Source: Siphonodentalium dalli
Taxonomy: Eukaryota; Mollusca; Scaphopoda; Gadilida; Siphonodentaliidae
Reading direction: 5' to 3'
Assembly: GCA_032622095.1 (NCBI GenBank)
Contig: CP136063.1
Location: 23,066,987-23,130,986, forward strand
Length of the DNA: 64,000 nt
Shown here: positions 33,781-59,218 of the stretch, piece after piece
How the letters are laid out: the number at the start of each line of letters is the position of its first letter
How positions within the stretch are numbered: the stretch's first letter is position 1
Notes under the pieces: generated by a model
What the model saw: only the letters and a program-made list of their open reading frames with translations
Database searches by the model: none
Told to the model about the DNA's origin: nothing
Made by a program: the position numbers and the translations under genes

Positions 33781-34064
33781 ACATTGGTTGGTGGGAATAT
33801 TGATGATGTGATTTACCTTGGTTGGTGGGTATATTGCCTTTATTTACCTCGGTTGCTGTGTATATTGCCTTTATTTACCTCGGTTGCTGTGTATATTGCC
33901 TTTATTTACCTTGGTTGGTGGGAATGTTGCCTTTATTTACCTTGGTTGGTGGGAATATTGCCTTTATTTACCTTGGTTGGTGGGAATATTGCCTTTATTT
34001 ACCTTGGTTGGTGGGAATATTGTCTTTATTTACCTTGGTTGGTGAGAATATTGCCTTTATTTAC
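33781..34064 (-). repeat. 31-bp minisatellite of 5' splice sites, continuing from the transmembrane exon
   Basis: Ten units, nine of them 31 bp apart. The plus-strand start motif ACCTTGGTTGGTGGG lies at 34063, 34032, 34001, 33970, 33939, 33908, 33877, 33846 and 33815, and a diverged unit starts at 33781. On the minus strand every unit reads (exon-like) ACCAACCAAG followed by GTAAAT, the same junction as the real exon end. The first unit is the authentic exon end. Two units carry ACCGAG instead of ACCAAG and the last AACCAAT, but all keep GTAAAT. Skipping the first donor gives Q-G-K-stop. Confidence 0.9.
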
Positions 34065-34211
34065 CTTGGTTGGTGGGTATATTGCCTTTGGAGCCATAAC
34101 GAAAGTAATAACAGCAGCAGGAAACTACGATACAGACAGCAAAAGTTATACCAAGTATCACGAGCACACGAGTTGATGGACCTTTTGATTTCTTCTTATA
34201 ACTTGAGTCGT
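34065..34211 (-). CDS. Exon: transmembrane helix
   Basis: 147 nt, phase 1 to 1, with acceptor ATATTTTTTGCAG and donor GTAAAT, coding residues 315-363. A basic patch (YKKKSK) precedes about 22 hydrophobic residues, VLVILGITFAVCIVV then SCCCYYF, followed by RYGSK. The three cysteines at 346-348 lie where palmitoylation is common in single-pass proteins. The stop-transfer placement after two extracellular modules and before a proline-rich tail gives a type I topology if an upstream signal peptide exists. The exon is short and hidden among repeats; it was found from the phase requirement and the helix. Its last 5 codons and donor form the unit of the 31-bp array that follows. Confidence 0.8.
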
Positions 34212-34235
34212 CTGCAAAAAATATAGTATATCATT

Positions 34236-34570
34236 AATGTTATGTGAAACACTCTAGGCAATCAAATAGAAATGGAGAATAATCTTGCTGAAAGTAGTTA
34301 TTTTTATGAACATTAATCCAAATTTCCGACAAACGCCGTCAATCTTATATACTGATTAATTAAATGCAATGACTCTCGATGGTTAAATCGCCGATAGTTG
34401 CGTCGCGAAATGAGATGTAAATATCTACAATTGTGCATAGTTAGTATGGTCGATTTCTTTGAGATTTTCGATGATGTCATTAGAATGCTGCATTCCTCCA
34501 TTGGCATAGCGCCTGAAGACTACGTGTACCTTATCAGTTTCACACTGAACAAGTCCATTATGTCTTTAAC
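34236..34570. repeat. Dispersed repeat S, copy 2
   Basis: One end lies about 25 bases upstream (transcript sense) of the transmembrane exon's acceptor. It contains the AATGGAGAATAATCTTGCTG and CTTATCAGTTTCACACTGAA landmarks. Confidence 0.7.
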
Positions 34571-34576
34571 AATAGC

Positions 34577-34760
34577 AAGGGCATAATGGGTGAGGGTTTG
34601 ACAAGAATGATTAACAACACAAGGGCATAATGGGTGAGGGTTTGACAAGAATGATTAACAACACAAGGGCATAATGGGTGAGGGTTTGACAAGAATGATT
34701 AACAACACAAGGGCATAATGGGTGAGGGTTTGACAAGAATGATTAACAACACAAGGGCAT
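34577..34760. repeat. 44-bp minisatellite, ~4 units
   Basis: GGGCATAATGGGTGAGGGTT then TGACAAGAATGATTAACAAC, identical units. Confidence 0.95.
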
Positions 34761-35249
34761 CAAAGACCACTAATAACCCATCAACACATCAGAACTAAAC
34801 TGTTCTTTTGCAGGAAAATGAGATATTGGTATATCTTTCGAATCGGTGTGGATATTCCTGTATGAAAATCACCAGATATCGTGTCTAATACCAAACTTGA
34901 ATGAGAGGCTGTGTAAATCTGTTCCATCTCAAAAACTCTCTTTATTGACAGTGCTATATTGTTCTATATCTCCACTGTGGACCAATGAATCTATTTATTT
35001 TGTACCATTAAATGAATTAACGTGATTAAATAAATTTCAGTGCTAAAATGTTGTACATGTATCTCTGACCTTCAATATAGAAAGCAATGGAACCCAAACT
35101 TGGCAGAGTGTCAGCGAAGCGATTGGTTGAAAGCAATGCTTTCTCACTCCTAGGTATGAACATCCTTATTTCTGGATAAATTATTTGGTTAAAATAAAAC
35201 AGAAAATGGCGTTATTTGGGATTTTAATTTGCACGTTTTTATGATTAAA

Positions 35250-36612
35250 CGAGAGGCCGATCACGATCGGCAGATGTTTAACCCATCCCTTGGCGATAAT
35301 AAATTGTTATGATCAGAATCATAATCGTTTAATGTTGAATTATAGAGTATACTGTTATGATCTAAAGTAGTATATGACAAATGTACATAATAACCAGTAA
35401 TAACACAAATTATTGGAATGTATGAGTCAATATAGAAGGGTTAATATAACATCTAAACTCTAGAGCCTGTCACCACTACCATAGTGTAAGCAGTTCTATT
35501 CATGTTGTTGCAAATTGCCATGTGAGATATCAAAATAATATAATTATTTATTTAATGGAAAAGGTTAAAAGACATGGAATGGGTAAAAGGGGTTAAATCA
35601 CCTATCTCTGCCCTGTTTGATCCAATGTAGTCCCATCATCCAAGGACTTAGAGAGCTCCATTGGTCTAGTTAAATAAATTCACATGGCTAAGTTGTGGTT
35701 AAAAAGATAGCTAAATCAATTTATCCAATAATTCACTTATCTGTGTCTTATACAGAGCTAACATATGAGGGCTATAAATAACTCTCAAAGCAATAAACTA
35801 TATTGTCTTTTATCTTGCTCACAGAGAAGCAGGTATTCATTAATTGTAAGTTACTTGGGTTATAATCTGGATAATTCTTAGTTTAAAAACGGCCATATCT
35901 CTGGTATAACAAATTGGATCTAACCCATATTCAAACTCGTTCTGTATTTTGAGTTGAGAAACTCACATACCAAATTTGGTTCCTATCAGATGAAAAATGG
36001 TTGATTTATCGAAGTACATGTATGTGTGAATTATATGTCAAAGGACCATAACTCCATTAAAAATCCGATCAAACCCATATTCGAACTCAATCTGTGTGTT
36101 GGTCTGAGAAACTCATACACCAAATTTGGTTCCAATCAGATAAAAAATGTTAGAGTTATGGCAGAATTAATGAATTCTAATTCGAAAAAGGGCCATAACT
36201 CCGTAAAAAAAACTCGGATCAAACCCATATTCGAACTCGATCTGTATTTTGGGCCGAGAAACTCACATACCAAATTTGGTTCCGATCAGATAAAAAATGT
36301 TTGAGTTATGGCAGAATGTGTGAATTCTAAGTAAGAAAAGGGCCACAACTCTGTAAAAAAAAGTCGGATCAAACCCATATTCGAACTCGATCTGTATTTT
36401 GGGTTGAAAACCCCATATACAAATTTTGGTTTTGATCAGGTAAAAAATGTTTGAGTTATCGCATTACACGTAAAGTGTCTATGGACGGACAGACAGACGG
36501 ACGGTACGACGGCTCGACAGACGGACGGACGGACGGACGGACGAACGACGAGTGGTCAATCCGGACGTTGACACTATGTGTACCATACTATGGTATGGGT
36601 ACACATAAAAAC
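35250..36612 (+). mobile_element. Pearl-like element, type Q, complete copy
   Basis: Begins GAGAGGCCGATCACGATCGG and matches 7651-8905 closely. About four ~150-bp core units are followed by an ACGG array (36480-36545), CGACGAGTGGTCAATCCGGA and the terminal hairpin GTGTACCATACTATGGTATG GGTACAC. Confidence 0.8.
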
Positions 36613-36649
36613 TCAAAACCACAATAGCACGTAAAAAAAAAAACCCAGA

Positions 36650-38345
36650 AAATTTACATACCGAGCCACAAACATATAGTAGGATGTACAGCTGAGTGTC
36701 GTCTGATCTACACTATGTGGGGCTCACTATGGGATAGGTATATATATATAAGTGGGATATATACTTACCATCATTACTAGATGAACTTCTCCAAGAATTA
36801 TATTTTTCTCCCATAGCGAGCCCCAAACATAGAATATCATGTACTCTACGGGGCTCACTATGGGATAGGTACATATATGTAAGTTGAAAGTGGGATACTT
36901 ACAAGCATCACTAGCTCCAGGAATTACATTTTACTCCCACACCGAGCCCCAAACATATAGTAGGATGTACAGAGTGTCGTCTAGTGCTCTACAATGTGTG
37001 GGGCTCACTATGGGATAGGTACATATATGTAAGTGGAATACTTACCATCATTACTAGATGAACTTCTCCAGGAATTTTACTCCCATACCGAGCCCCAAAC
37101 ATTGGGTAGGATGTACAGCTGAGTGTCGTCTGATCTACATTGTGCGGGGCTCACTATGGGATAGGTAAGTGGGATACATACCATCATTACTAGATGAACT
37201 GCTGCAGGAATTATATTTTACTCCCATACCGAGCCCCAAACATTGGGTAGGATGTACAGCTGAGTGTCGTCTGCTCTACACTGTGTGGGGCTCACTATGG
37301 GATGGTTACATACATGTATATGTAAGTGGAATACTTACCATCATTACTAGATGAACTTCTCCAGGAATTTTACTCCCATACCGAGCCCCAAACATTGGGT
37401 AGGATGTACAGCTGAGTGTCGTCTGATCTACACTGTGCGGGGCTCACTATGGGATAGGTAAGTGGGATACATACCATCATTACTAGATGAACTGCTGCAG
37501 GAATTATATTTTACTCCCATACCGAGCCCCAAACATTGGGTAGGATGTACAGCTGAGTGTCGTCTGCTCTACACTGTGTGGGGCTCACTATGGGATAGGT
37601 ACATACATGTATATGTAAGTGGAATACTTACCATCATTACTAGATGAACTTCTCCAGGAATTTTACTCCCATACCGAGCCCCAAACATTGGGTAGGATGT
37701 ACAGCTGAGTGTCGTCTGATCTACACTGTGCGGGGCTCACTATGGGATAGGTAAGTGGGGATACATACCATCATTACTAGATGAACTGCTGCAGGAATTA
37801 TATTTTACTCCCATACCGAGCCCCAAACATTGGGTAGGATGTACAGCTGAGTGTCGTCTGCTCTACACTGTGTGGGGCTCACTATGGGATAGGTACATAC
37901 ATGTATATGTAAGTGGAATACTTACCATCATTACTAGATGAACTTCTCCAGGAATTTTACTCCCATACCGAGCCCCAAACATTGGGTAGGATGTACAGCT
38001 GAGTGTCGTCTGATCTACACTGTGCGGGGCTCACTATGGGATAGGTAAGTGGGATACTTATCATCATTACTAGATGAACCAGTCCAGCTGCTCTATGATT
38101 TATATCTCACAGTTGTCCTCCCATAAGAGATACTTCCATTAACACTGTATCAGGTATTATAGTTTGCACCCATAGTGAGCCCCACACATAGATGATCATG
38201 TACTGTACATTAACACTGTATCAGGTATTATAGTTTGCACCCATAGTGAGCCCCACACATAGATGATCATGTACTGTACATTAACACTGTATCAGGTATT
38301 ATAGTTTGCACCCATAATGAGCCCCACACATAGATGATCATGTAC
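36650..38345 (-). repeat. Tandem array of exon-tail/donor copies alternating with GAGCCCC hairpins
   Basis: About ten copies of the end of the 38.4-kb exon lie downstream of it. On the minus strand they read AATTCCTGGAGAAGTTCATC, then AGTAATGATG and GTAAGT or GTATGT, the same codons (NSW...SSSND) and the same phase as the real end. They alternate with a hairpin element bounded by GAGCCCC/GGGGCTC. Donor-side motifs fall near 36766, 36899, 37042, 37189, 37336, 37481, 37629, 37775, 37921 and 38056. The copy at 38056 has lost its GT. A higher-order period of 293 bp is visible, for example 37169 and 37462. Next to the exon (38146-38345) a separate piece of about 70 bp with the same hairpin core is triplicated. 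Confidence 0.85.
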
Positions 38346-38386
38346 TGTGTGGGGCTCACTACGGGATAGACCTGTGGGATACTTAC

Positions 38387-38636
38387 AATCGTTACTCGAT
38401 GAACCACTCCAGCTGCTCCATGAATTATAATTATATCTCACAGTTGTCGTCGTCCCATAACTTTTACTGCCGGACGAAGATACGGCAAGCATGAACTTAA
38501 ATGACCCAGAACTATAGGAAGGGGCATATTTTTCGTTAGCTTTCTTGTGAACCTTGACCTCGACTGTATGACCCTCATGACACTTCTGCCATTTCGCCCA
38601 TTTGAAATATTTGGAGCATTTATATGTTTCTGTTTT
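38387..38636 (-). CDS. Exon: second half of CUB-like module 2 plus Ser/Trp-rich stalk
   Basis: 250 nt, phase 0 to 1, with acceptor TTATCATTTCAG and donor GTAAGT, coding residues 232-314. YKCSK and WQKC give cysteines 238 and 250, with the same 12-residue spacing as in module 1. TVEVKV and GSFKFMLAV are likely the closing strands. The last 30 residues (GTTTTVRYNYN, then SWSSWSGSSSND) form a low-complexity juxtamembrane stalk. The tail of this exon and its donor are copied about ten times downstream in the intron. Reading frame stays open upstream of the acceptor to an ATG at 38699 and would encode a hydrophobic leader, which raises an alternative start (see findings). If the 38387 donor is skipped, translation stops after about 34 codons. 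Confidence 0.8.
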
Positions 38637-38675
38637 CTGAAATGATAATAAGATACAGATAAGATACATACATAT

Positions 38676-38790
38676 TATCACAACAGTGTGTTGATCCATG
38701 TCGTAATATCATGTCGAGTTGAGGTGGGCAGATTGCCGGATCAAACGAGACATGATGCAACGTCATGGATCAACTCACTGCTGTGATAAA
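38676..38790. repeat. Inverted repeat upstream of the 38.4-kb exon
   Basis: TATCACAACAGTGTGTTGAT CCATG pairs with CATGGATCAACTCACTGCTG TGATA. It covers the in-frame ATG discussed in the findings. Confidence 0.7.
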
Positions 38791-38934
38791 AGGTTTATTA
38801 TATGATGCCCAGTTTACAATAATAACCATTTGATCTGATTTAATTACCGATTGTTTTCACATCAGTAGTTTAATTTTCTTAATTTCAACAGATAAATAGT
38901 CCATTGTCATTAATTGGCACATCTCGGCAAATGG

Positions 38935-39382
38935 AAATGGAGAATAATCTTGCTCAAAGTAGTTATATTTACAAATATTATATCCAAATTGACAACACAC
39001 GACATCATTCTTATATATTAATTAAATGCAGTGACTCTCGGTGGCAAAATAGTTTTCGTTAGTTTATCTCTGAGAGTTGCATCCCGAATGGAGAGGTAAA
39101 TATTTATAATTGAGCGTGGTTTGGACGATGTTTTCTATGACGTGGTAAGATGATTTGATTGAGATTTTCGGAGATGTTAGTACAGTAATGCCCTAAGTAA
39201 TCGACCTCTTAACCAAAGCAGAATTATGGATAACTTTTCAGGATTTAGTCGGAAATATGGCTTGTTGCCATTCATAAGTCGATTACTTAGGGCATTACTG
39301 TAGAATCTTACATTCCTCCTGTTGGGGTAGCGCCTTACTACTAACTTATCAGTTTCACGCACCCTAACAAGTCCATAATATG
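38935..39382. repeat. Dispersed repeat S, copy 3, with a TA MITE inside
   Basis: The repeat S landmarks are present. At 39183-39300 a 118-bp CAGTAATGCCC hairpin interrupts GATGTTAGTAGAATGCTACA, duplicating TA. Uninterrupted S copies have a single TA there. Confidence 0.8.
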
Positions 39383-39385
39383 CCT

Positions 39386-39637
39386 TTAACCCTTTGAGTG
39401 CCAGGGGCCGATCTCATCGGCCCAAAACCTACAAAATAAGTCTGTTAAAGAATATAAGAATAAATTATTAAAATTGTAAAAAATTGTAAAAAAAAAAAAA
39501 TTAAAAAAAAATTGTTAGGCCAATGCATTCTCTTATATATGCGAGACGACCTATGGTCGACTCGCATATATAAGAGAATGCATTGGCACAGGGTATATGG
39601 GTTGATACAAAAATCGACCTGGCACTCAAAGGGTTAA
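39386..39637. mobile_element. TTAA family B element
   Basis: Intact TTAA ends, CCCTTTGAGTGCCAGG terminus and one palindrome. Confidence 0.85.
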
Positions 39638-39654
39638 CCATTACGTTGGTGATA

Positions 39655-40265
39655 CTGATTAGCTATTTTCAGTTTGGACGTTAAAATCCATAAGCCATAA
39701 CTCCGTAAAAAAAAAATGGATCAAACCCAAATTCGTATTCTATCTGTATTTTGGGGTGAGAAACTCACATACCAAATTTGATCAGATAATTTTTTTTTAA
39801 GTTATTGCAGCATGCATGTATTCTAAGTCGAAGAAGGGCCTTAACTCCGTAAAAAAAACTCTGATCAAACCCACATGCACGATCTGTATTTTGGGCTGAG
39901 AATCACAAATACAAAATTTGGTTCTGATCGAATAAAAAATGTTTTGAGTTATTGCAATCTACGGACAGACAGACAGACAGATGGACAAACGACAAATGGT
40001 TAATCCGAACATCGACATTATGTGTACCATACAGTAATGCCCAAAGTAAGTGACCACTTAACCACATCAGAATTATGGGGATTTAGTCGGAAATATGGCT
40101 TGTTGCCATTCATCGGAAAGCTCTCGGTGAGAGCTTTCCGATGAAGATGAATGGCAACAAGACTTATTTCCAACTAAATCCTGAAAAATTACCCATAATT
40201 CTGCTGTGGTTAATTGGTCACTTACTTAGGGAATTACTGTACAATGGTATGGGTACACATAAAAA
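39655..40265 (+). mobile_element. Type Q pearl-like element, 3' part, with a TA MITE in its terminal hairpin
   Basis: Two core units and an ACAG-type microsatellite (39960-39985). The hairpin GTGTACCATA...CAATGGTATGGGTACAC is split by a 208-bp CAGTAATGCCC element (40032-40239) with TA duplicated. Confidence 0.8.
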
Positions 40266-40299
40266 TCAAAATAAATTAACCATTCAATAGGGGCAAAGA

Positions 40300-42485
40300 G
40301 TGTGCTCAACTTTAAAAGGGAATAATTTAATGTGTTACAGTCAATGGAGCGATTAGGAATGTGGAAAGTTGAAATGTCTAATACTAGTTTATCAACATGA
40401 AGAGATATATATATATACAAAAGTAAAATCTAAGATGGTTGCTGGCGGCTATGTTTTCCAATAAAATTCAAAAACATTTTAAAGCTTTAGTCATGCAAAG
40501 AGTAAAATCCATGATGGCTGCTGACAGCCATGTTTTAATGCCCCAAAAATGACTTGTTCCCATATACATTCCAATTTCCACAGCCATGACAAATTTCATG
40601 ATGATCAGACTAAAGGTATGACCTGTAGCCCATGCTAAAGGTTTTACTAGTAGTCATACAAAGAGTAAAATCCAAGATGGCTGCTGGCGGCCATGTTTTT
40701 TGGCCGAATGACCCCAAAATGATAATTTCCCATCTACATATCATTGTTAACATCCACAACATATTTTATGATGATCCAACCAAAGGTACGACCTGTAGCC
40801 TGTGTCAAAGGATTTAGTCATGCAATGAGTAAAATCCAAGATGTCTACCGGTGGCCATGTTTTTTGGTCGAATGACCCCAAAATTACTCGTTCCCATCTA
40901 CATGACAATATTAACATCCATGACAAATATCATGATGATCAGACGAACAGTACGACCTGTAGCCCATGCTTATGGATTGAATTTTGAAATCCAAGATGGC
41001 CACTGTTTTTGTCCGAATGACCCCAAAATGACTCGTTCCCATCAACATTCCAATTTGAACAGTCATGACAAATTTCATGATGATCAGACTAAAGGCACGA
41101 CCTGTAGCCCATGCTAAAGGATTTAGTCATACAAAGAGTAAAATCCCAGATGGCTGCTGACCGCCATGTATTTTAGCCGAATGACATAAATGACTCGTTC
41201 CCATCTACATGTGATTGTTAACATCCATGACAAATTTGATGATGATCCGACCAAAGGTACGACCTGTAGCCTGTGCCAAAGGATTTAGTCATGCAAAGAG
41301 TAAAATCCAAGATGGCTGCTGGTGGCCATGTTTTTTGGCCAAATGACCCCAAAATTACTCGTTCCTATCTACATGTCAATATTAACATTCATGACAAATT
41401 TCATGATGATCAGACGAATAGTACGACCTGAAGCACGTGCTAATGGATTGAATTTTGAAATCCAAGATGGCCACTGGCAGCCATGTTTTTTGTCCGAATG
41501 ACCCCCAAAATGACTCGTTCCCATCAACATTCCAATTTCAACAGCCATGACAAATTTCATGATGATCAGACTAAAGGTACGACCTGTAGCCCGTGCTAAA
41601 GGATTTAGTCATACAAAGAGTAAAATCCAAGATGGCTGCTGGTGGCCATGTTTTTTAGCCGAATGACTCCAAAATGACTCGTTCCCATCTACATGTCATT
41701 GTTAACAGCCATGATAAATTGTATGATGATTCGACCAAAGGTACGACCTGTGGCCTGTGCCAAAGGATTTAGTCATGCAAAGAGTAAAATCCAAGATGGC
41801 TGCCAGCGGCCATGTTTTTTGGCCGAATGACCCCAAAATAACTCGTTCACATCTACATGTCAATATTAACATCCATGACAAATTTCATGACAATCAGACG
41901 AACAGTACGACCTGTAGCCATGGTAATGGATCAAATTTTAAAATCCAATATGGCCGCTGGGCGCTGGCGGTCATGTTTTTTCTCGGTATGACCCCAAAAT
42001 CGACTCGTTCCCATCAACATTCCAATTTCAACAGCCATGACAAATTTCATGATGATCAGACTAAAGGTACGACCGGTAGCCCGTGCTAAAGGATTTAGTC
42101 ATACAAAGAGTAAAATCCAAGATGGCTGCTGGCAGCCATATTCTTTTGGCCGAATGACCCCAAAATAATAAGTTCCCATCTACATGTGATTGTTAACATC
42201 CATGACAAATTTATGATGATCCGACCAAAGGTACGACCTATAGCCTGTGCTAAAGGATTTAGTCATGCAAAGAGTAAAATCTAAGATGGCTGCCGGCGGC
42301 TATGTTTTTTGGCCGAATGACCCCAAAATTACTTGTTCCCATCTACATGTCAATATTAACATCCATGACAAATTTCATAATGATCAGACGAATAGTACAA
42401 CCTGTAACCCATGCTAATGGATTGAAGTTTGAAATCCAAGATGGCCGCTGGCGGCCATGTTTTTTTTCCGAATGACCCCAAAATA
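40300..42485 (+). mobile_element. Pearl-like element, type P, long core
   Basis: After the 5' motif (CAGTCAATGGAGCGATTAGG, AAAGTTGAAATGTCTA), about thirteen core units of about 160 bp each contain AAATCCAAGATGGCTGC, GGCCATGTTTTTTGGCCGAA and CATGACAAATTTCATGATGA. Two unit subtypes alternate (GTCATACAAAGAGTAAAATC versus GATTGAATTTTGAAATC). The 3' end is missing; a MITE follows directly. Confidence 0.8.
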
Positions 42486-42486
42486 A

Positions 42487-42849
42487 TATTTTTTTACCCA
42501 AAATATGTATCTCCTATAATAAATATCTTGGACACTGAATGAACTAATGGTTATATATTTCTTGCTTGCAAGATCATAGAAGTCGTTTTAAAAATCGGTA
42601 CGGAGTACCTACAGTACGCGCACTGTCAAACCTAAACAACTTTACCTCTGGACCAATCGTGTGAGTCCTTTCGCTATAGAAGCGAATGACAAGTAAGATT
42701 TCGATCCTTTTAATTTCTTCCTCCTGTGTGTTTGATGCGTTTGACCGAGTGCGCGGGGCGGGAATGTTGATATCCCAACTGGGAGGGCCCTCTGTGTTCA
42801 GTGTCCAAGATATTTATTATAGGAGATACATATTTTGGGTAAAAAAATA
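42487..42849. mobile_element. 363-bp MITE with 53-bp inverted termini
   Basis: TATTTTTTTACCCAAAATAT through TCTTGGACACTGAA is inverted at 42797-42849. A diverged half-copy follows at 42858-42910 (TGTATCTCCGTCAAATATAT, CTTGGACACTGAATGAAC). The loop is more G/C-rich than the surroundings. Confidence 0.85.
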
Positions 42850-42910
42850 GTATACACATGTATCTCCGTCAAATATATCTTGGACACTGAATGAACTAAT
42901 GGTTATAATT

Positions 42911-44828
42911 AGAATTCTTGAAGAGGAGGAGGCCACGAGGCAGATAATCAGACTATGTCCATGAAACCCGCCTGCTGAAGCAGAAAAGACCTGCATCCTG
43001 TACCAAAAAGATTTCTTGGTAGACATGTGCCAAAAAATAAATCATTGTGTCCCATATGCAGTAGCTCAGATAAACCCCAATACAACTGAGCCTCCTAAAA
43101 GGAAACAACACGTACCTCGTGTGCCCTAATGATCACAGGGTGAAGGTGTCCAAGACAAACATTGGTCATAGGCCAGGGAGATAACTCATTCGTTCATGTT
43201 CCTAATAGGATAAAGGAACCTATACCCCCCCCCCCCCCCCCACCCCCCCTTAGAGGATGAAGCAGCACTAGCACGACATCCAGAGGATGATGACCGGCCC
43301 ACAAGACATGCAAAAGGGGCACCCCAATCCCCCCCGCCTCCCCCATAAACGCCGAATCAATGCTCATAATGGATCTCGCAAAATGAGTCAATGTTCAGTG
43401 CGGTATGACTAACTTGACAGTATTTTGAGCCCGACCGAGAGACCCAGGGGAGATATGAGAAACCGTTGGGCCCAGACCAATGGGGGGAACCATGGATACA
43501 CCAGGAAAATATGACGGAGTTGAGCTGATTATGTCCAGAGCACTGGGAATAATGTCCATGGAAAGAAAAAGCATACACATAAGGGAGGGGACCAGGACGG
43601 AAAGAGTGCCTGCCTCCGGTACACCAAGCCAAGGAACTGGAAATTGAAGTGTACGGTCAACCAAGGAGAGGAACTGATACCGCTAATGGAACACTGTCTG
43701 ATCATACTGCCAATCTGTGATGCAATGCACAGGCCTGCATGGTTTCAAATTAATGTGGAACTGAGTTATCGTTAGTCAGGTGGTTGTATAGGTAACCCAT
43801 ACCGTAGGTTAGCAGAAAAGTTACACAAACTGTGATAACACGACAACTGGTATTATCAAGCACCGATGGGCATGCAGCAATAATTGTTAAATGTCGCAAA
43901 TAAGGTGAGAATCGGTGATCGGTAAATCGGATTAGAATTAGAATCACGCCCGTCAAGTGATGTGAAACACTCGGCCAGAGTGAGAACATAGAATTGGAAA
44001 ATATTTGTGGTCAAAGTCGGAACTGCGACAAACACTATAACAAAATGGACTACATACAGGACGCATATATAGACACCAACGAGCGTAGTTCAGACGATAG
44101 TGTCTATGGAGCGGAACAGTCAAAATTCATTATATGTTCGGCTAAGAGAGTAGAACGCTAAAGTCCCCTGTGAGATATAGCACCCGCATACTAACTTATC
44201 AGGTTCACACCCACGATCAAGTCCATAATACGTCTAGGTTTGTCTCATAAAAGCGGCCTAATCGTTGAATAAAATTCGAACAGATTTGAAGGCCCGAAAC
44301 TAGAAAGACTGGTCTCAACAACACCTGGAATACCCTGACGGGATAAGAAGGGAGGTGATAATGGAGGCGAAATAAACTTATTCAGGAGCAGTTCCTGATT
44401 GTGGCACATAGCCAGAGCAATGGGATATGGCAGCAAGCAGACTGACAGAGGAAACCTCAAAGTACAAAGAAAGGAGGTAATATTGCACTAAACACTCAGT
44501 CGAATGATTGCAACTTGTTGGCGACAAGGAACAATCAGGTAGCCAAGGCAAGAAAGGGTTTCGGAAAAACCGGTATGTGTCGTGACAGCATGAACCTGGA
44601 TGGACTGAGGCAGGACCAGCGGTAGCTGCTGCAGAACATCCATCGCTGCGAAGGTTGTGGAAGACGCGACTACATATAGAGGAGGCATGACCACCAACAG
44701 ACTCCGAGCCTGCTGCGCAGGCTGTACCGAGTTGACAGAGGAAAATCCATTGTTGCCCGACTGTGTGACGGTTGAGGAAGCCGCGACTACAAATAGAGGA
44801 GGCATGACCACCAACAGACTCTGAGCCT
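42911..44828. other. G/C-richer block, no gene resolved; possibly decayed transposon coding
   Basis: Composition differs from the neighbours. Minus-strand frames at 43395-43664 and 44378-44854 overlap in several phases. A ~125-bp unit encoding SLLVVMPPLYVVASST occurs twice (about 44660 and 44790). C and G runs at 43226-43254 and 43330. Part of repeat S lies at 43965-44240. No motif of a reverse transcriptase or transposase was recognised. Confidence 0.4.
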
Positions 44829-47976: not shown

Positions 47977-48355
47977 TTAACCCTTTACCCAACAAAACGG
48001 CCAAAAACGCCCAAATAAAGCTTCAACAGTCTAAAATATCTTCGGTCTGTCTCAATAACACCATACAAATATGGATATCATTGGAACGGGTTCATTGACC
48101 ACATTGTGATGGTTACAGTTATGCCCTGTGCCAATACATTCTCTTATATATGCGAGTCGACCATAGGTCGCCTCGCATATATAAGAGAATGCATTGGCCT
48201 AAAAAAATCTTTTTTTACCATTTTTTTCTTACATTCTTTAACAATTTTATAAATTTTTTCTTACATTTTTTATAATAATTTTCTACATTCTTTGACAATT
48301 TTATCATTTTTAATATGTGTTAAGCCAATGCATTCTCTTATATATGCGAGGCGAC
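47977..48355. mobile_element. TTAA hairpin MITE, family A, copy 6, right end lost
   Basis: The left TTAA and terminus are intact; sequence stops in the second palindrome after GCGAGGCGAC. A Harbinger-like element begins 25 bases later. Confidence 0.8.
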
Positions 48356-48379
48356 AACAATTATAAAACACAGTCATAA

Positions 48380-49314: not shown

Positions 49315-49639
49315 TAAAAGTTACATACTGCAACATACCGGTAGGTACATCCGCGAAGGTATATACGCGAATCATACATCATGCAAAAAGACTAACTCTT
49401 TTGGGCTTATAAGACAACACGTAATGTCCAAATTTCTCATTAAAGTTTTCTCCAGAGCCACAGACATTTTCTGTATGTTTACATATTTCCTTGCAAATTG
49501 CATGATTTCTTAAAATGTGTATATTTATTTGTTTGTTTGAGTTGTCTGCTTCATAAAAAAAACGTTTGTAAACACATGCAGTTCCAGTTGCAATACCACA
49601 AAAAAGTTGTCGGCGGTGTTCGTCAAGAATGAGTTTAGG

Positions 49640-49850
49640 TTGCTGCAGAATGAGGTCCACAGAGGGTGAATTTAGTGATGCCACCAAATTAACCCTCATT
49701 GGGACCTCATTCTGCTTGGCCTCATCTGCTAGGGGAGACATAGACTCAGACTGAAATTCCCAAATGGTGAATTTTGTGATGTACACCCATTGGGAACCTC
49801 GATTACGCAGTGTGTCGTCTGCCAATTTGGGGATATAGAGAAACTATAAT
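49640..49850. mobile_element. hAT-like hairpin fragment
   Basis: TGCAGAATGAGGTCCACAGA...GGGACCTCATTCTGCTTGG hairpin and the linker of the family, about 70 bases downstream of the 50-kb exon's donor. Confidence 0.65.
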
Positions 49851-49919
49851 ATAGAAATGGATACAATATTAATTGATGAGCACTATTAGTATGATGTTTA
49901 TATACAAAGTCATACTTAC

Positions 49920-50182
49920 AGTATAATAACTAATTCCTTTAAATTTAAAGGTTACAGTGTATGGGCACGTCATTAATGTTTTCGTCTCGCTGTCTGCTAG
50001 CATCGTCACACATAGCTCTCTAGATGAACGTTCAGTGAATTTGAGAGTACAGTCCGGTTTATATGGATCGCTACTCCCGTGAACATATAGCACTGATCTT
50101 CTCGGGATATTAAAAGTTCGCTTCCTCTTACAATCGTTTCCATTGGAGAAACTTATATCAGCAGTATGGCCTCCATATGAAT
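49920..50182 (-). CDS. Exon: first half of CUB-like module 2
   Basis: 263 nt, phase 1 to 0, with acceptor TTTTCTTTTCTAG and donor GTAAGT, coding residues 144-231 (the junction codon TAT gives Tyr144). Cysteines lie at 161, 188, 201 and 216. RELCVTMLAD and TCPYTVTFKF align with ICVTILVDD and CPYKLMAQN of the 59-kb exon, and the cysteine spacing is 27, 13 and 15 against 29, 14 and 13. The segment 145-160 (YGGHTADISF) precedes the first cysteine. The exon start and acceptor are copied three more times just upstream in the transcript direction. Reading through the donor stays open for about 16 codons before a stop, so the exon edge is set by the splice site and the phase match. Confidence 0.8.
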
Positions 50183-50500
50183 CTAGAAAAGAAAACAAGA
50201 GTGTCATTATGATTGGCACATGTGATGCCCATAGCAACAACCATGCAAAACTTATTTCAACAGTATGGCCTCCATATACGAATCTAGAAAAGAAAACAAG
50301 AGGGTGATTATGATTGGCACATGTGATGACCATAGCAACAACCATGAAAAACTTATTTCAACAGCATGGCCTCCATACGAATCTGGAAATAAAACAAGAG
50401 GGTGATTATGATTGGCACATGTGATGACCATAGCAACAACCATGCAAAACTTATTTCAACAGCATGGCCTCCATACGAATCTGGAAATAAAACAAGAGGT
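50183..50500 (-). repeat. Tandem array of 3' splice sites upstream of the 50-kb exon
   Basis: The acceptor plus exon start (CTAG or CCAG followed by ATTCRTATGGAGGCCAT) recurs with exon-start positions 50182 (real), 50283, 50382 and 50480, spacing 101, 99 and 98. Each unit also carries the pyrimidine tract (CTCTTGTTTTMTTTYYAG on the minus strand). The copy at 50283 has two extra bases, which shift the frame and produce a stop when an upstream acceptor is used. Units 3 and 4 are nearly identical. Confidence 0.85.
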
Positions 50501-50813
50501 GAATCATGATTGGCAAATAAGTTACTCAGAACATCAATTAGAACCGCACATGGTTTTGACTCGTAAGATATTAATTATAAAATATCATACAGAATTAAAA
50601 TAAAATTATGTCAAAATAAATGACTCACATTAATCAAACCAACGATATAGTAAGAGAGTTACACATACTATCAGCATATGAAACTCAATGAAGGGCTATT
50701 TCAATGTCATTCATTTTTTCTCTCTCAACTTTGAAATTGTCTAAAATCCCGATACAAGGTCTTGGAAGCTCACACTGGCTCATTGTCGATACCTCTGATT
50801 TGATTAACCCTTT

Positions 50814-50981
50814 CAGTGCCAAGTCCGAATTTTGTATCAACCCATATTTCCTTTATAATTTTTTTAATTTGTTGATTATAATAATGTGATACATTGTTAC
50901 ATTATTATAATCAATAAATTTGAAAAATATCAAGGAAATATGGATTGATACAAAAATCGGACTTGGCACTGAAGAGGTTAA
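50814..50981. mobile_element. 168-bp TTAA family B element without palindrome
   Basis: TTAA, CCCTTTCAGTGCCAAGTCCG and the inverse GGACTTGGCACTGAAGAGG. The whole element is one foldback; it lacks the GCCAATGCATTC hairpin seen in other members. Confidence 0.85.
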
Positions 50982-51069
50982 ATATGCCCTTAAATTATGA
51001 CAGAAGAAAGTAGATAAGGACTGTACAACCTAGCAGGATCTCATTGTTGTCAAATGGTAATTGTGAATG

Positions 51070-51172
51070 TCTCCCCGAGAGCTTTCCGATGAATGGCAAC
51101 AAGCCATATTTCCGACTAAATCCTGAAAAGTTACCCATAATTCTGCTGTGGTTAAGAGGTCGATTACTGAGA
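51070..51172. mobile_element. Half of a TA hairpin MITE
   Basis: GAGAGCTTTCCGATGAATGG to GTGGTTAAGAGGTCGATTAC; only the right arm remains. Confidence 0.65.
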
Positions 51173-51174
51173 AT

Positions 51175-51740
51175 GCACTTGAGGTGATTATGTAGCTATA
51201 ATAATTATTGAATGATTCTTTTGATCCTTGTTTTAAAGTTTTTGGTTCAACTTGTTGATTGAGTTTTGCAAATAAATTATTTCTTTGCTTAATATTCTTC
51301 ATACAGAAAAGGAAAAAATGTTCTTCGTCTTCTAATTGAAGACATATGAATATAATGAATGATGGATACAATTCCGATCTGCCAATTTATTGGACATTAC
51401 AAAAAAACTCTATAAAACAACAGCGTCATCACTAGGTATTCACCTATTCATTGTGCTCACTGATTACAACTCCCTTCAAATCATACATGTTTACATAGTC
51501 GGTTTCATCAAATGTGTATAAACAAAAATCCGCATATTTATTAGACCGTTACGTACGATATCTCTGAAGTACAAAATACTTTCGTCGCCTAACTTCCTCT
51601 GGACTGTCAATCTATTCAGTGCTTTTTTATTAGCTTTCCGTCTCCATTTGGGGTTAAAAATATTTGGCCAAAAGTTTGACCAAATGAAATTTTTATTAGC
51701 CAAATTCGAAAAAAGATTGTCCATTGTCCAATTTGGGAAC
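51175..51740. other. No gene seen (intron)
   Basis: Minus-strand frames of about 70-110 codons (51030-51371, 51491-51751) lack motifs and suitable splice phases. Confidence 0.4.
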
Positions 51741-51744
51741 TGAC

Positions 51745-53480
51745 AGCGCAAACACTGTCTCTGGCCATGCCCTTACTTGACCTGGTGACACTATTTGAAC
51801 AAATATGAATCCCAGTCACTGAAGAACTATCCATATTAAATATAAGCTATATAAACAAGATGATTCTTGTGAAGAAGATATTTTAAGAATTACCATAGAT
51901 GGAAAGAGGTGTCACTGGACTCACCCCTATTTCACCTGCTGACCCTATTTGAATCCCAGTCACCCAAATGACCATCAATGCTAAATATCAGCTAAATCAG
52001 CTGATGGTTCTTGTAGTCCAGTCAATGTAGTGATTTAAAACCTCACACTAATTGCAACAGAATTTATGTCACCGCTATGATGTATAGAAACGTTCACCAA
52101 ACATATAAAAAGTCCGAAAAAGTCCCACATTGCAAACTTGTGATTTTTGATGACTAAAAATTTCATAATTTCTCAGAATTCCTAATGAAAATTGTGAACC
52201 AATCGGTTCGCCACCACGTGAGGTGAGAAACGATCTTGACACGTTTGAAAGTAAACACAACATGCCGTGCGAAGCCAATTGCAAGTTGACAAGACAGCAA
52301 CTCCATAAACATTACAATTCACAATAATGGTCAATGTAGTCCTGAGGGTTCTTGTGAAGAAGAGATATTATGAAATACATGGAGGGAAATAGTTTCATCT
52401 CCCGCACCGCCCCTATTTGATCTAGTGATCCCATCTGAACTAATCTGAATTCCAGTTACCCAACGACCCTCCATACCAAATATAACCTAAATCAATCTAA
52501 TCTGAATTCCAGTTACCCAACGACCCTCCATACCAAATATAACCTAAATCAATCTAATCTGAATTCCAGATACCCAACGACCCTCCATACCAAATATAAC
52601 ATAAATCAATCTAATCTGAATTCCAGATATCCAACGACCCATCATACCAAATATAACCTAAATCAATCTAATCTGAATTCCAGATACCCAACGACCCTCC
52701 ATACCAAATATAACCTAAATCAATCTAATCTGAATTCCAGATACCCAACGACCCTCCATACCAAATATAACCTAAATCAATCTAATCTGAATTCCAGATA
52801 CCCAACGACCCTCCATACCAAATATAACCTAAATCAATCTAATCTGAATTCCAGATATCCAACGACCCATCATACCAAATATAACCTAAATCAATCTAAT
52901 CTGAATTCCAGATACCCAACGACCCTCCATACCAAATATAACCTAAATCAATCTAATCTGAATTCCAGATATCCAACGACCCTCCATACCAAATATAACC
53001 TAAATCAATCTAATCTGAATTCCAGATATCCAACGACCCATCATACCAAATATAACCTAAATCAATCTAATCTGAATTCCAGGTATCCAACGACCCTCCA
53101 TACCAAATATAACCTAAATCAATCTAATCTGAATTCCAGATACCCAACGACCCTCCATACCAAATATAACCTAAATCAATCTAATCTGAATTCCAGATAT
53201 CCAACGACCCTCCATACCAAATATAATCTAAATCAATCTAATCTGAATTCCAGATATCCAACGACCCTCCATACCAAATATAACCTCAATAGGCCAAATG
53301 GTTCATGCAAAGTAGACGCTATAAGAATTACTATGGAAGGAAATAGTATGTCACTGGCCCTGTCTCTAGTTGACTATTTAACAAATCTGAATTCCAATCA
53401 CACCCTCCATGACAAATATAAGCTTAATAGGCCAGATGGTTCATGCAAAGACATCTACAAAATTACTTATGTTTTGTATT
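51745..53480. repeat. Type R pearl-like core with an embedded 57-bp minisatellite
   Basis: Type R units (TATTTGAATCCCAGTCACC, GATGGTTCTTGTGAAG) at both ends. From about 52434 to 53285 a 57-bp piece of the unit is amplified about 15 times: CAATCTAATCTGAATTCCAG, ATACCCAACGACCCTCCATA, CCAAATATAACCTAAAT. Variants (ATATCC, CCATCATACC) recur in blocks. Confidence 0.9.
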
Positions 53481-53673
53481 GAGTGGTGAGGTCGATTTCT
53501 TTGAAATTATCGGCGATGCTAGTAGAATGCTACATTCTCCAGGTTGGCATAATGCCTGAATATTAACTTATCAGTTTCACAAACGCGATCAAGTCCATAA
53601 TATGTCTTTAAGAATTATTATTGAGGGGAAGAGTTATCTCCCTGGTCTCGCCCATATTTGACTTGGTGACCCT

Positions 53674-53782
53674 ACAGTAATGCCCTAAGTAATCAACTCC
53701 TTAACAAAAGCAGAATTATGGGTAGCTTTTCGGGATTTAGTCGGAAATATGGCTTGTTGTCATTCATCAGAAAGCTCTCGGG
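53674..53782. mobile_element. Half of a TA hairpin MITE beside the 54-kb exon
   Basis: CAGTAATGCCCTAAGTAATC to GAAAGCTCTCGGGG; left arm only, about 34 bases from the exon's donor. Confidence 0.7.
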
Positions 53783-53815
53783 GTGATAACAATGAAGAGA
53801 TAAAGCTGAACTCAC

Positions 53816-54029
53816 AAGAATTTGGTAATGGTGTTGTTGTTGTTGTTGTTGCTGCTGCTGTCGGAAACACATCATGTCTAATAGAGGCCACAACTGCTTT
53901 GAGTGTGTATTGTCTTGATTTATTTTGGTCAGTGAGGTAATTTGTAAACTCTATGGTCAAACCATTGTCAGAGCAAAGTCTCCATTTCTTATCAGCACCT
54001 GGCTTGTTGCATGAGTACACATCTTGAGA
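53816..54029 (-). CDS. Exon: second half of CUB-like module 1 plus Thr-rich linker
   Basis: 214 nt, phase 0 to phase 1, with acceptor TATTTTTCAG and donor GTGAGT, coding residues 73-143. YSCNK and WRLC supply cysteines 79 and 91, completing the six-cysteine set. The stretch GLTIEF and then QYTLKAVVA look like the two closing strands of a CUB fold. Residues 129-138 are an Ala/Thr run from a (GTT)n-type microsatellite in the coding sequence, followed by PLPNS; this is a plausible O-glycosylated linker and probably length-polymorphic. The same start (SQDVYSCNK with its acceptor) is repeated twice more upstream in the transcript direction, at 54527 and 55024. A half-copy of a TA-type hairpin MITE ends about 30 bases beyond the donor. 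Confidence 0.75.
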
Positions 54030-55031
54030 CTGAAAAATATATATTTGACCCTGTGCCAATGCATTCTCTTATATATGCGAGTCGACCATAGGTCGCCTCG
54101 CATATATAAGAGAATGCATTGGCTTAACAAATTTGATATTAGTTTTTTATAATGTTAAACAAATGTAAAAAATTAAAAAAAAATGACCAAAAAAAAATGT
54201 TAAAGAATGTAAGAAAAGATTATAAAAATATCCGAACCTATTATTATTATAATCTTTTCTTACATTCTTTAACATTTTTTTTGTCATTTAAAAAAAAAAC
54301 AATTATCCTTTTTTTTTTTTTTTTTTTAATAGTTTTTTACATTTGTTAACAATTATAAAAAAACTAATATATAATTTGTTAGGCCAATGCATTCTCTTAT
54401 ATATGCGAGGCGACCTATGGTCGACTCGCATATATAAGAGAATGCATTGGCACAGGGTTAAATTGTCCTGGTAAATTGGCATACTCAAATCATTTATCAG
54501 CTTGTTGCATGAGTACACATCTTGAGACTGAAAAATATATATTTGACCCTGTGCCAATGCATTCTCTTATATATGCGAGTCGACCATAGGTCGCCTCGCA
54601 TATATAAGAGAATGCATTGGCTTAACAAATTTGATATTAGTTTTTTATAATGTTAAACAAATGTAAAAAATTATTAAAAAATGACCAAAAAAAAATGTTA
54701 AAGAATGTAAGAAAAGATTATAAAAATATCCGAACCTATTATTATTATAATCTTTTCTTACATTCTTTAACATTTTTTTGTCATTTAAAAAAAAAAACAA
54801 TTATCATTTTTTTTTTTTTTTTTAAATAGTTTTTTACATTTGTTAACAATTATAAAAAAACTAATATATAATTTGTTAGGCCAATGCATTCTCTTATATA
54901 TGCGAGGCGACCTATGGTCGACTCGCATATATAAGAGAATGCATTGGCACAGGGTTAAATTGTCCTGGTAAATTGGCATACTCAAATCATTTATCAGCTT
55001 GTTGCATGAGTACACATCTTGAGACTGAAAG
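54030..55031 (-). repeat. Two extra ~497-bp units carrying acceptor and exon start, each holding a hairpin MITE
   Basis: Exon-start copies lie at 55024 and 54527, ahead of the real one at 54029. Each begins TCTCAAGATGTGTACTCATG with a YnCAG acceptor and encodes SQDVYSCNK. After that the copies lack 7 bases (CCAGGTG) of the real exon and soon run into a hairpin element. The element is bounded by CCCTGTGCCAATGC and GGCACAGGGTTAA and holds two long palindromes around an AT-rich centre. The acceptor pyrimidine tract of the two inner copies (ATATATATTTTTCAG) lies immediately next to the MITE end. Confidence 0.85.
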
Positions 55032-55263
55032 AAAGACACAATTTTCGTTATCATGCTCGCCTATTAGATTGACCAATGGGAATGGACAATTACCTATAGG
55101 ATATGAGGGGATGTTAGGTTCACCTTGATTGACACCAAAACCATATTGAAAGCCCAAGTGGATATGGAACAATAGGGAGCCAATAGATACCAACTTTGCT
55201 GCATCATGTTTATTTATGGTGTATTTTGTGCTAGGATGTCCGTTGGAAATCATTTTCTACAAA

Positions 55264-55552
55264 TTAACTCTTTCAGTGCCAAATTAACTCTTTCCTAATT
55301 TATGGTCTGTAGAGTGCCAGGGGCCGATAAAATCAGCCCTAAAAAAAATTTAAAAATTTTTGGGTTGAATTATTTTTGGGTATGCTTAAGCATGCTATAG
55401 CGAATTTAAAAACAAAGTGGATAAGTCCTTAGGGGCATGTTATATCTCAAAACTATCACCAAGTAGTCATAGTAATCATTTTGATGCCCATGAAAAACGT
55501 AAGATTCCCTGGCACTAAACCTACAAACTAATCCTGGCACTGAAAGAGTTAA
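55264..55552. mobile_element. TTAA family B element
   Basis: TTAACTCTTTCAGTGCC is duplicated at its left end and TTGGCACT-type inverse sequences end it at 55549-55552. The interior shares TTTTGATGCCCATGAAAAAC with 27195-27300 in reverse. Confidence 0.7.
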
Positions 55553-55796
55553 AATATATAGTACCATATATATATATGTACCAAATACTATGGTGCCATG
55601 TGAGGCTCAGCAGGGATAATATTTTATAAGTTATTTTTTGTGCGTTTGTTTTATATTTTTGTTTTACTTTCGTTCTTCTCAATGATCCACTATTTTTTTC
55701 ATTCTGCCGAAATTTCTGAAAAATGGCCAAACAAGTTCAGATATGGCCAAAATATTGGCCAGAAGAATTTAATGGCCAGAGTCCCAATAGCATATT

Positions 55797-56235
55797 TAAA
55801 GGACCACTTAATTTTCAAGTCACTGGTTATTTTTTTTCTAGTGACTTGATATAAATTTTAATAATAATCTATGCCATAAAATATGATTAAAATACTATAA
55901 TTCATCACCATTTGAAACATTTGTGTCTCAGAAGATGCCCATAGAGAAATAGAAAACAGCTGAAATCATCGAAAGATTCCCCCCTTTTTGGCTCCCAGAA
56001 TGCCACAGAATTCAAACTAAAGACGTATTTTTAATGGAAGAGAAATAACTCCATCTTCCGTTGAAAATAGTATACTTTTTACTACAATCTAGATGACAAA
56101 AATACATCGGTAACTCAACAAAAATAACATGTTCACAGTTTATAACACCGGATAAGTTGATAATACAATGTTTTGGAGCTTCCTCTTTCAACTGGTATAC
56201 TAGTATAATACGGCTTATATTTTATAAATGTGATC
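55797..56235. mobile_element. Left part of the 599-bp AAGGCCCACTTAA family
   Basis: AAAGGACCACTTAATTTTCA, TGCCATAAAATATGATTAAA and GGAGCTTCCTCTTTCAACTG follow the order of 18582-19180; the right end is replaced by G tracts. Confidence 0.7.
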
Positions 56236-56282
56236 TGGGGGGGGGGGGGGGGGTATTTACTGATCTGGGGGGGGGGGGGGGT
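56236..56282. repeat. Two poly-G tracts in a short direct repeat
   Basis: TGATCTG plus about 17 and about 14 G, then TATTTACTGAT, present twice. G-quadruplex potential. Confidence 0.85.
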
Positions 56283-56314
56283 ATTTACTGATTATAATGG
56301 TGTTCTTACTCACT

Positions 56315-56765
56315 AGACTGGTTAAAGAAGGGTGATGTTGTGTTAAATTTACATTATACTTGGATTAAAGAAGGGTGATGTTGTGTTAAATTTACATTAT
56401 ACTTGGATTAAAGAAGGGTGATGTTGTGTTAAATTTACATTATACTTGGATTAAAGAAGGGTGATGTTGTGTTAAATTTACATTATACTTGGATTAAAGA
56501 AGGGTGATGTTGTGTTAAATTTACATTATACTTGGATTAAAGAAGGGTGATGTTGTGTTAAATTTACATTATACTTGGATTAAAGAAGGGTGATGTTGTG
56601 TTAAATTTACATTATACTTGGATTAAAGAAGGGTGATGTTGTGTTAAATTTACATTATACTTGGATTAAAGAAGGGTGATGTTGTGTTAAATTTACATTA
56701 TACTTGGATTAAAAAAGGGTGATGTTGGGGTGTAAATTGAATTGTACAGAAGGGTGATGTTGGGG
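56315..56765. repeat. 43-bp minisatellite, ~9 units
   Basis: GGATTAAAGAAGGGTGATGT then TGTGTTAAATTTACATTATA CTT. Two diverged units (GGGGTGTAAATTGAATTG) end the array. Confidence 0.95.
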
Positions 56766-57088
56766 TGTAAATTGAATTGCAGCCATTGCTACTTCTCCCT
56801 GATAACAGTCCACATCTCCTTCATTATGTTAATCATGAAGCCTCAATAAAGTTATGAAACCTGTTAATGGTATATGTTAGATGTGAAGTGAGTTTCCTTC
56901 TAAATATTTTTATGCACATGTAGGGGAAAATTTGGTCAGAACAGATCAGACCTGAAGTGGTGAAAACGTACAATTCTGAAAACGAAATTTACCAAGATTT
57001 CTCATGCAAATTTCAATTTTTGATCGTTAAAACTTTCCATTTCAAGATATACTCTTAAAATGATGTAGAGCGGGATACAAAAGAAATT

Positions 57089-58058
57089 AGCTCAACTTAG
57101 GATAGTTTCATGTGTTACAGTCAATGGAGAGATTAAGAATGTGGAAATTTGAAATATCTAAGTAATACTGGATATCAACATGAAGAGATATATATAAAGT
57201 AAAATCCAAGATGGCCACTGGCGGCCATGTTTTCCAATGAAATTAAAGAATTAATTCGAAGTTTGGTGATGATCGAATGAGGGAAGTGGACTGTAGGGTG
57301 TGCGAAAGGATTTTAGACTAAAATCCAAAATGGCTGCCAGTGGCAGGTTTTTAAACAAAACTTGGAAAAATTAGATTTCTCGCATCTTGTGGTCATCCCG
57401 AAGATCCATGTGAAGTTTAGTGACAATTAGACTGACAGGGTCCTCCACAGATGTTTCACCTATTATAGTCAATTTATAGTCACCAAATATATGATTACTT
57501 TCTCAGATGTATATTGTATATATATTACGTTATGACAGACACCATTGTTTTATGGTTTGTTTTAATAAATCTTATCTTATCTTATCTTGACAAATAGGGT
57601 GTCGTCTGTAGGGTGTACCAAAGGATTTAGTCACACAAAAATTAAAATCCAAGATGGCTGCTGGCAGCCATGTTTAAAAAAAAAAATTTGTTGCTCCTAT
57701 GTTTTAGTGCCGAATGACTCCAAAATGACTTGTTCCCATCTACATGTCAATATTAACATCCACGACAAATTTCATGATGATCAGACGAACACTCTGGTCT
57801 GTAGCCCTGCTAATGGATTGAATTTAGAAATCCAAGATGGCCACTGGCCGTCATGATTTTTTGCTGAAAGACCCCAAAATGACTCGTCCCCATCGACATG
57901 ACAATGTCAATAGCCATGACAAATTGCATAATGATCTGACCAAAGGTATTATCTGTAGCCCATGCTAATGGAAATTGTTGATGGATGCACACACACATGG
58001 ATGATGGATACCATCCCATGGCAATAGCCCAAACTTTACAAAGTAAAGTTGAGTTAGA
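57089..58058 (+). mobile_element. Pearl-like element, type P, diverged core
   Basis: 5' motif (TAGCTCAACTTAGGATAGTT), core units with AAATCCAAGATGGCYRCTGG, and the 3' hairpin AGCCCAAACTTTACAAAGTA AAGTTGAG. A short TCTTATCTTATC repeat at 57575. Confidence 0.7.
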
Positions 58059-58059
58059 T

Positions 58060-58366
58060 TTAAAAAAATGAACAATGTTCAGAATTTATGTGAGTTATTT
58101 TCAATTTTACTTGTCATATTATTGCACAATATTAGTCTTAACAAAATGAATTGACGAAAGTGACTCTAATGATAAAATTTACCTGGAATATGTTCACTTT
58201 TGGGATTTTGCCACCAAAACATGAAATTTGCATGAGAAATGTTGGTAAATTATGTTCTCGGAATGGTGTGTTTTGACCATATCATACATTCTGTTCAATG
58301 TGGGATGTTCTTACTTGGGACGTTTGGGTAGTGGGTAAGTTCAGTCTATAACACAATACTAAACGT
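58060..58366. other. No gene seen (presumed intron)
   Basis: Nothing recognised between the type P element and the decayed exon-edge copy. Confidence 0.4.
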
Positions 58367-58403
58367 ACTGATTGAGTTCTGTCTATTTTGTTTTATAGGT
58401 TAA
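58367..58403 (-). repeat. Decayed copy of the 59-kb exon end and donor
   Basis: Plus strand 58367-58403 resembles 58990-59026, the last codons and donor of the 59-kb exon (shared: GAGTTCTGTCTATTTTG and ATACTAAAC). In the copy the donor reads GTACGT instead of GTAAGT. It lies about 620 bases downstream of the real donor. Confidence 0.55.
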
Positions 58404-59003
58404 CCAATACAGGTAAGTGGGTGCCTGACAAGGTAACACATCTGCCCGGGCCAACGAAAATCACACCTACCCCTCTGGAATGACAATACAAAGTCATGAA
58501 GATAAGTAGAGTGAAAGAAATAATGGCTTACAACCTATCCGTCATATAATTTCCCCACATAATGAAGGTGGTGCACAAATGTATGGATGTCAAAAGAAAG
58601 GGGAGGTTGTCTGCTAGGCATATTAAAGAAGATTCAAGGCTAAATGTGATGATGACCAAGGTCCCAATTTCTCGTAGACAAATTGCTCCTCGTTCTGATG
58701 ACATGAATTTTTAGGTGGAAGCCGGACCCTGGACCGGTTTATTAGAATTTTGAAAATAGTTTTAGAACGTACCCCACAAAAACAAGATTCATTTAATGCC
58801 AAAGGTAGAATTTCTAAGTTTTTGAAAATTACTCCCAAATGAGTTAAAAAAATGCCAAAATGTTTTGATAAAATCATCATCAGTTGCAGTTTGCTGACTA
58901 TATGCCACGCTAAGCGCATGTCACATCACGTTTCGACTCGTTACCTGCAAGAACATGAGATCAAAAGAATAGTCACATGACGTCATATTGATACTAAACT
59001 TAC

Positions 59004-59218
59004 CGATGAGTTCTGTCTATTTTGTGCCATGAGTTTGTAGGGGCAGTCTCCTGACGTATAATCGTCCACGAGAATGGTGACACATATCGCAGGTTCCGTA
59101 CCAGTATGTAGAAACGTTTTGATGCAGCTACCCAGTGAGTCCTTGTTTCCAGTCAGGATCCACTTTACCCATCTCGATGTGATATCAATCACTTCACTCT
59201 CTTTCCCATCACAGCTAT
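59004..59218 (-). CDS. Exon: first half of CUB-like module 1
   Basis: 215 nt between an acceptor (TTTTTCAG) and a GTAAGT donor, coding residues 1-72 of the visible protein. It starts two bases into a codon, so an upstream exon ending in phase 1 must exist. Cysteines sit at residues 3, 32, 46 and 59. The motif ICVTILVDD followed by CPYKLM matches LCVTMLAD...CPYTVTF of the 50-kb exon, which marks both as the first half of the same domain. The cysteine-strand-cysteine pattern resembles CUB domains, but the match is by eye and the domain is divergent. No signal peptide is encoded here. Alternatively it could be an unnamed six-cysteine beta-sandwich. Confidence 0.75.

Follow-up and report, generated by a model that had tools for sequence, protein, structure and literature searches.

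Copied exon edges of the mirage type in the introns of a putative membrane-protein gene of the scaphopod Siphonodentalium dalli

Why should the ends of exons, splice sites included, recur inside the adjacent introns of a gene, and do so at nearly every one of its exons? The question is raised by a stretch of 64,000 nucleotides from the scaphopod Siphonodentalium dalli (C3:23066987-23130986, contig CP136063.1, of a 2.23-Gb genome in nine contigs), hereafter the window, which carries a minus-strand gene of which we found six exons (E1 to E6). Each of exons E1–E5 has one edge duplicated into the adjacent intron together with its splice site: the donors of E1, E4 and E5 and the acceptors of E2 and E3. 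The initial annotation of the window had described this pattern, and both the exon coordinates and the edges that it named proved to be correct. When joined, E1–E5 form a single open frame whose junctions all have AG/GT, and the exons therefore most likely belong to one gene; the phase of the E6 acceptor, judged by eye, fits the preceding exon. The short answer to the question is that this gene is a striking new example of a kind of repeat already known as mirages.

The copied edges differ from exon to exon. At the donor of E5 (34065..34211, minus strand, as for all features of the gene), ten 31-bp units, each made of 25 bp of exon and 6 bp of intron, occupy positions 33777..34089 and supply nine extra donors, all with GT. 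The donor of E4 (38387..38636) has nine copies in the stretch 36650..38110 (array 36914-38079), with a unit of about 147 bp; most lie 136–157 bp apart, within a higher-order unit of 293 bp, and GT is kept in 8/9. The acceptor of E3 (49920..50182) heads an array at 50149..50515 with 3.7 copies of a unit of about 98 bp and three extra acceptors, all with AG, while the acceptor of E2 (53816..54029) has two extra copies within 54030..55040, each comprising about 28 bp of exon with intron, at a spacing of approximately 495–498 bp. The donor of E1 (59004..59218), finally, has an old, single copy at 58356..58391, made of 22 bp of exon and about 14 bp of intron, with GT kept. The initial annotation had called this last case weak; it is a true copy, with a gapped score of 28.5 against a maximum of 17.5 in 200 dinucleotide shuffles of that intron. 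More generally, the edge copies exceed chance expectation from shuffled sequence, the splice site always lies within the copied stretch, as had been claimed, and GT or AG is retained in 23 of the 24 intronic copies. At each of the five edges, in the four arrays as in the single copy, the repeated piece runs from the end of the exon across the splice site into the intron, which is the arrangement seen in mirages. A hairpin-like dispersed repeat with inverted GCCAATGCATTCTCTTATATATGCGA ends is also present at 54053-54122 and 54380-54450, and similar stretches occur elsewhere in the window; sitting within the 498-bp E2 unit, it was multiplied together with that unit.

Since the units are different at each edge, the copies at different exons are, to judge by these units, separate events, in agreement with the initial annotation. 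The spread of one array to every edge is ruled out by the differing units and breakpoints, and in a member of the same gene family (L061) the E5 edge has a 63-bp unit of its own.

The protein is predicted to have a single membrane-spanning stretch, encoded by E5, with E1 contributing to a putative extracellular part. E6 (28220..28684), whose acceptor edge is uncopied, carries the stop codon and encodes a proline-rich cytoplasmic tail containing PPxY motifs. It contains two coding minisatellites at 28438-28671 (42 bp x2.3 and 54 bp x2), both with unit lengths that are multiples of three. A Pfam search of the protein at E 1 gave no match, and searches of PDB and NCBIfam gave no convincing one; a mollusc haemocyanin domain was sought and none was found, which excludes little. 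No 5′ start of the gene was found.

A collinear counterpart of the window lies about 299 kb upstream, recovered by a search cut at 85% identity, in blocks that are 88–99.8% identical and separated by many gaps. All five edge copies, that is, the four clear arrays and the single copy at E1, are common to both segments, with equal numbers of copied edges at E5, E3 and E2. The duplicate segment alone has additional copies, with units of 108 bp at E1 and 184 bp at E4, so that copy number is variable, as it is in mirages. Such change is not restricted to exon edges: 51 of the 56 length differences of at least 15 bp between the two segments lie more than 200 bp from the six exons and five within 200 bp, and intronic arrays away from exons differ as well. 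Of a 57-bp intronic array at 52440-53290 the window has 15 copies and the duplicate segment about 48, split between two blocks, which marks it as a very unstable minisatellite, and a 47-bp array at 3332-4461 has 24 copies against 30. The latter array is open in three plus-strand frames. Within the E6 coding repeat, the duplicate segment is without one 42-bp unit.

Collinear blocks of this identity with many indels might also be expected of two haplotypes, and the arrays, or the duplicate 299 kb away, could in principle have been made by misassembly or be an unmerged haplotype. We regard this as very unlikely. Both assembled segments share these edge copies, copied edges were also seen in unrelated genes and in members of the family that lie on other chromosomes, and a neighbouring gene at C3 22.73-22.76 Mb has no second close copy in the family search. 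Moreover, even if the duplicate were a haplotype, the arrays would remain real.

The relatives of the gene show that copied edges are recurrent. A protein search for the family gave 33 matches on C1, C2, C3 and C9, 22 of which belong neither to the window gene nor to its duplicate; 20 of these 22 were taken with flanks of 800 bp. The family consists of diverse membrane-protein genes in clusters at C3 22.60-23.13 Mb, C9 203.65-204.31 Mb, C1 141.17-141.20 Mb and C2 108.61 Mb. For these loci and the controls, edges were assigned from genomic sequence only, with a simple ad hoc splice-site score. Some were excluded before counting: those of L058, whose frame is broken, and of the low-complexity L029, neither of which has a donor, the stop-codon end of E6 and, as having no callable splice site, the donors of L052, L057 and L059, 12 of 40 edges of ABC-transporter exons (two loci give none) and further edges of myosin-head exons. 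Six of the 35 callable family edges are locally copied (gapped score of at least 22), and four of the six are strong: the E4 acceptor of L059 (51-bp unit), the E5 donor of L061 (12 copies of its 63-bp unit within the flank examined, the unit differing from that of E5 in the window), the E1 donor of L063 (75-bp unit) and the E1 donor of L065 (97-bp unit). The near relative L064 is without the copy seen in L063, and events in relatives are recent. The two remaining rows are weak: L068 copies intron only, and the copy in L053 is a degenerate one that a stricter probe missed.

Copied exon edges are not confined to this family. Among ABC-transporter exons 2 of 28 edges are copied, namely a donor in L082, with a 53-bp unit and five intronic copies, four of them with GT, and an acceptor in L074, copied once at a distance of about 350 bp. 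Myosin-head exons have copies at two of 50 edges by the gapped measure, which represent a single event in two related loci (L025/L027, donor, 67 bp); the ungapped measure finds 0/50 at 30 of 40 bases and two at 28 of 40, and the measures therefore disagree in places. The 29 myosin loci form 16 clusters and are partly redundant, and with one locus per cluster the count becomes 1/26. These loci (L019-L048, at C4:158-291 Mb and other places) include many muscle-type myosin heavy chain genes, and 11 of the 29 fall into one cluster at identity of at least 85%. The copies in unrelated myosin and ABC genes mean that the phenomenon is not limited to the family of the window gene.

What process would produce such copies? 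Our preferred explanation, which we consider probable, is that they are mirage-type minisatellites: tandem duplication would be common in this minisatellite-rich region, and duplications at exon edges would be tolerated since the original edge survives. Small tandem duplications (approximately 30–500 bp) would arise often in the region and land in many places. Where one spans an exon edge, the exon would remain whole and keep its own splice site as the first copy, and the second copy would fall into the intron. With the original exon and splice site left intact, a duplication at an edge should be tolerable at any length, whereas within a coding exon only duplications that are a multiple of three would be likely to persist; the 42- and 54-bp repeats of E6 suggest such a limit. 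Once formed, an edge array would expand or contract like any minisatellite. States before and after edge duplication can be seen in the comparisons of L064 with L063 and of the window with the duplicate segment. Splicing most likely continues at the original edge, with the copied sites mostly unused bystanders, and the copies would then be neutral.

How often exon edges are copied can be compared with the introns around them. The raw count of 5/11 copied edges does not by itself prove enrichment, since local duplication also affects 36.5% of the intron points close to these exons. In an ungapped test (at least 30 of 40 bases), 29% of non-exon positions in the window and 32% of those in the introns of the gene are locally duplicated, and 4/12 edges pass. 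Matched points were chosen in introns such that the interior side, at distances of 110 and 140 bases, is unique as in an exon; at these points the copied rate is 12.6% for the window, 10.4% for the family, 7.3% for ABC and 1.8% for myosin genes. Of the 113 edges called apart from those of the window gene and its duplicate, 112 have a unique interior, and 10 of these are copied, against 6.5 expected (P = 0.11; all matched-point P values take edges as independent). The counts by group are 6/34 versus 3.5 for the family, 2/28 versus 2.0 for ABC and 2/50 versus 0.9 for myosin. Edges elsewhere are thus copied at about the matched rate, which counts for the neutral reading. Five pseudo-exons placed anywhere in the window would be expected to have 3.0 of 10 edges copied, compared to four seen (P 0.38).

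Several results weigh against neutral tolerance alone and fit the alternative that exon edges are true hotspots, at which a transcription- or splicing-linked cause makes tandem duplication commoner than in introns. In the window gene, which was picked for its pattern, five of nine unique-interior edges are copied against 1.1 expected (P = 0.0026), and with all groups pooled, the window included, the figures are 15/121 against 7.6 (P = 0.008). When pseudo-exons are held mostly unique, with duplicated bases capped at 50, 25 and 13%, the expectation drops to 0.9, 0.6 and 0.4 edges (P 0.009, 0.003 and 0/4000 runs, respectively). The duplicate segment at the same threshold gives P 0.29 unconstrained and at most 0.0002 constrained, although most of its copies are shared with the window. 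The E1 donor, moreover, is copied with differing units in three relatives (108 bp in the duplicate segment, 75 bp in L063 and 97 bp in L065), and the E5 donor has been amplified with two different units. Also in keeping with a hotspot, several donor units end only about 6–14 bp into the intron (E5, E1 of the duplicate segment, L063 and L082). However, the absence of a significant excess at the 112 other edges speaks against it, as do the doubtful status of two of the six family edges, the origin of the myosin pair in one event and the choice of the window gene for its pattern, and we consider hotspots unlikely. Whether the excess over local background is real turns on which null is used; exon edges may be mildly favoured, though the counts do not demonstrate it. 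The view of the initial annotation that minisatellites would not be expected at exon edges so often therefore holds weakly: there is an excess in the window gene and in the pooled set that includes it, but no significant one elsewhere.

A different possibility, also raised by the initial annotation, is that the copied sites work as splice-site decoys, through which a surface protein would gain short or poison isoforms under regulation. The retention of GT or AG in nearly all copies is compatible with this idea, and so are the predicted consequences of their use: all eight distal E5 donors that were scored would lead to a stop two codons past the exon, ahead of the exon for the PPxY tail, whereas one distal E1 donor of the duplicate segment (68550 there) would add 108 bp, or 36 codons, in frame and with no stop. 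However, the copies appear young or homogenised, so that intact sites would be expected in any case. Across three arrays, conservation is not clearly higher in donor columns than in the others (2/27 vary versus 17/98 other columns; two of the arrays are related, and power is low), and this weak test therefore gives no clear sign of selection on the copied splice sites. In amphioxus, the accessible parts of PMC3087553 indicate that globin mirages apparently leave regular splicing undisturbed, and that data on Adh3 together with reverse-transcription PCR suggest regular splicing despite mirages. We found no evidence for decoys or poison isoforms and consider such a function highly improbable. 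A combined proposal, in which the exon edges of the family are recurrent splicing- or transcription-linked hotspots whose spare splice sites, at nearly every exon, feed exon growth (as with the 108 bp at E1) or tail-less isoforms, seems to us quite doubtful. With its many separate events, the locus is well suited for testing how duplicated splice sites get ignored, are used or become new exon sequence.

Contrary to the initial annotation, which knew of no described system like this one, there are precedents in at least two settings. Neutral tandem duplication at exon edges, the reading that we prefer, can be set beside intron gain by tandem duplication in Cryptococcus, Drosophila and potato, where, in the sections available, splice signals are likewise copied and repeat expansion can create introns (PMC2395259, PMC2891723, PMC4974935); in the window gene, by contrast, existing introns gain sequence. 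In human segmental duplications, De Grassi and Ciccarelli (2009) listed, after inspection, 27 cases in which tandem repeats at an exon–intron boundary had modified the intron; as far as the accessible text goes, these boundary minisatellites (mean 30-bp units) similarly vary between paralogues and are enriched in large paralogue groups (PMC2812944). The closest likeness is with mirages, which were named in the Adh3 gene of amphioxus by Canestro and others (2002, as cited in PMC3087553) and later described in the globins BflGb6 and BflGb9 and in PGBD5, with troponin C cited in the PGBD5 paper (available portions of PMC3087553 and PMC3902484). According to the same portions, amphioxus mirages are minisatellite-like repeats across donor or acceptor boundaries with variable copy number, as here; their units are 10–72 bp in Adh3, 60 and 108 bp in PGBD5 and 150–160 bp in the globins, and somatic instability is reported for those of Adh3. 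The globin mirages affect both types of edge, with AG/GT in many, though not all, repeats (PMC3087553, in part). Unlike the human modifications, which in the portion seen are RNA-supported and were found via annotated exons (PMC2812944), and unlike the amphioxus mirages, the present copies affect one edge at five of the six exons of one gene, reach a spacing of about 498 bp, are known from the genome sequence alone and probably come from another lineage than amphioxus. Sequence evidence on the lineage is weak: among solved structures the muscle myosin exon is best matched by scallop chains (53 of 57 residues identical), closely followed by vertebrate myosin-7, and the dispersed repeats resemble those of molluscs. 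In the open-licence literature searched we found no report of mirages outside lancelets; an abalone gene has a 27-bp minisatellite within an intron, and the part of that report that was available mentions no exon edge (PMC6905558). The locus described here suggests that mirage-type repeats are not lancelet-specific and may occur wherever small tandem duplications are frequent.

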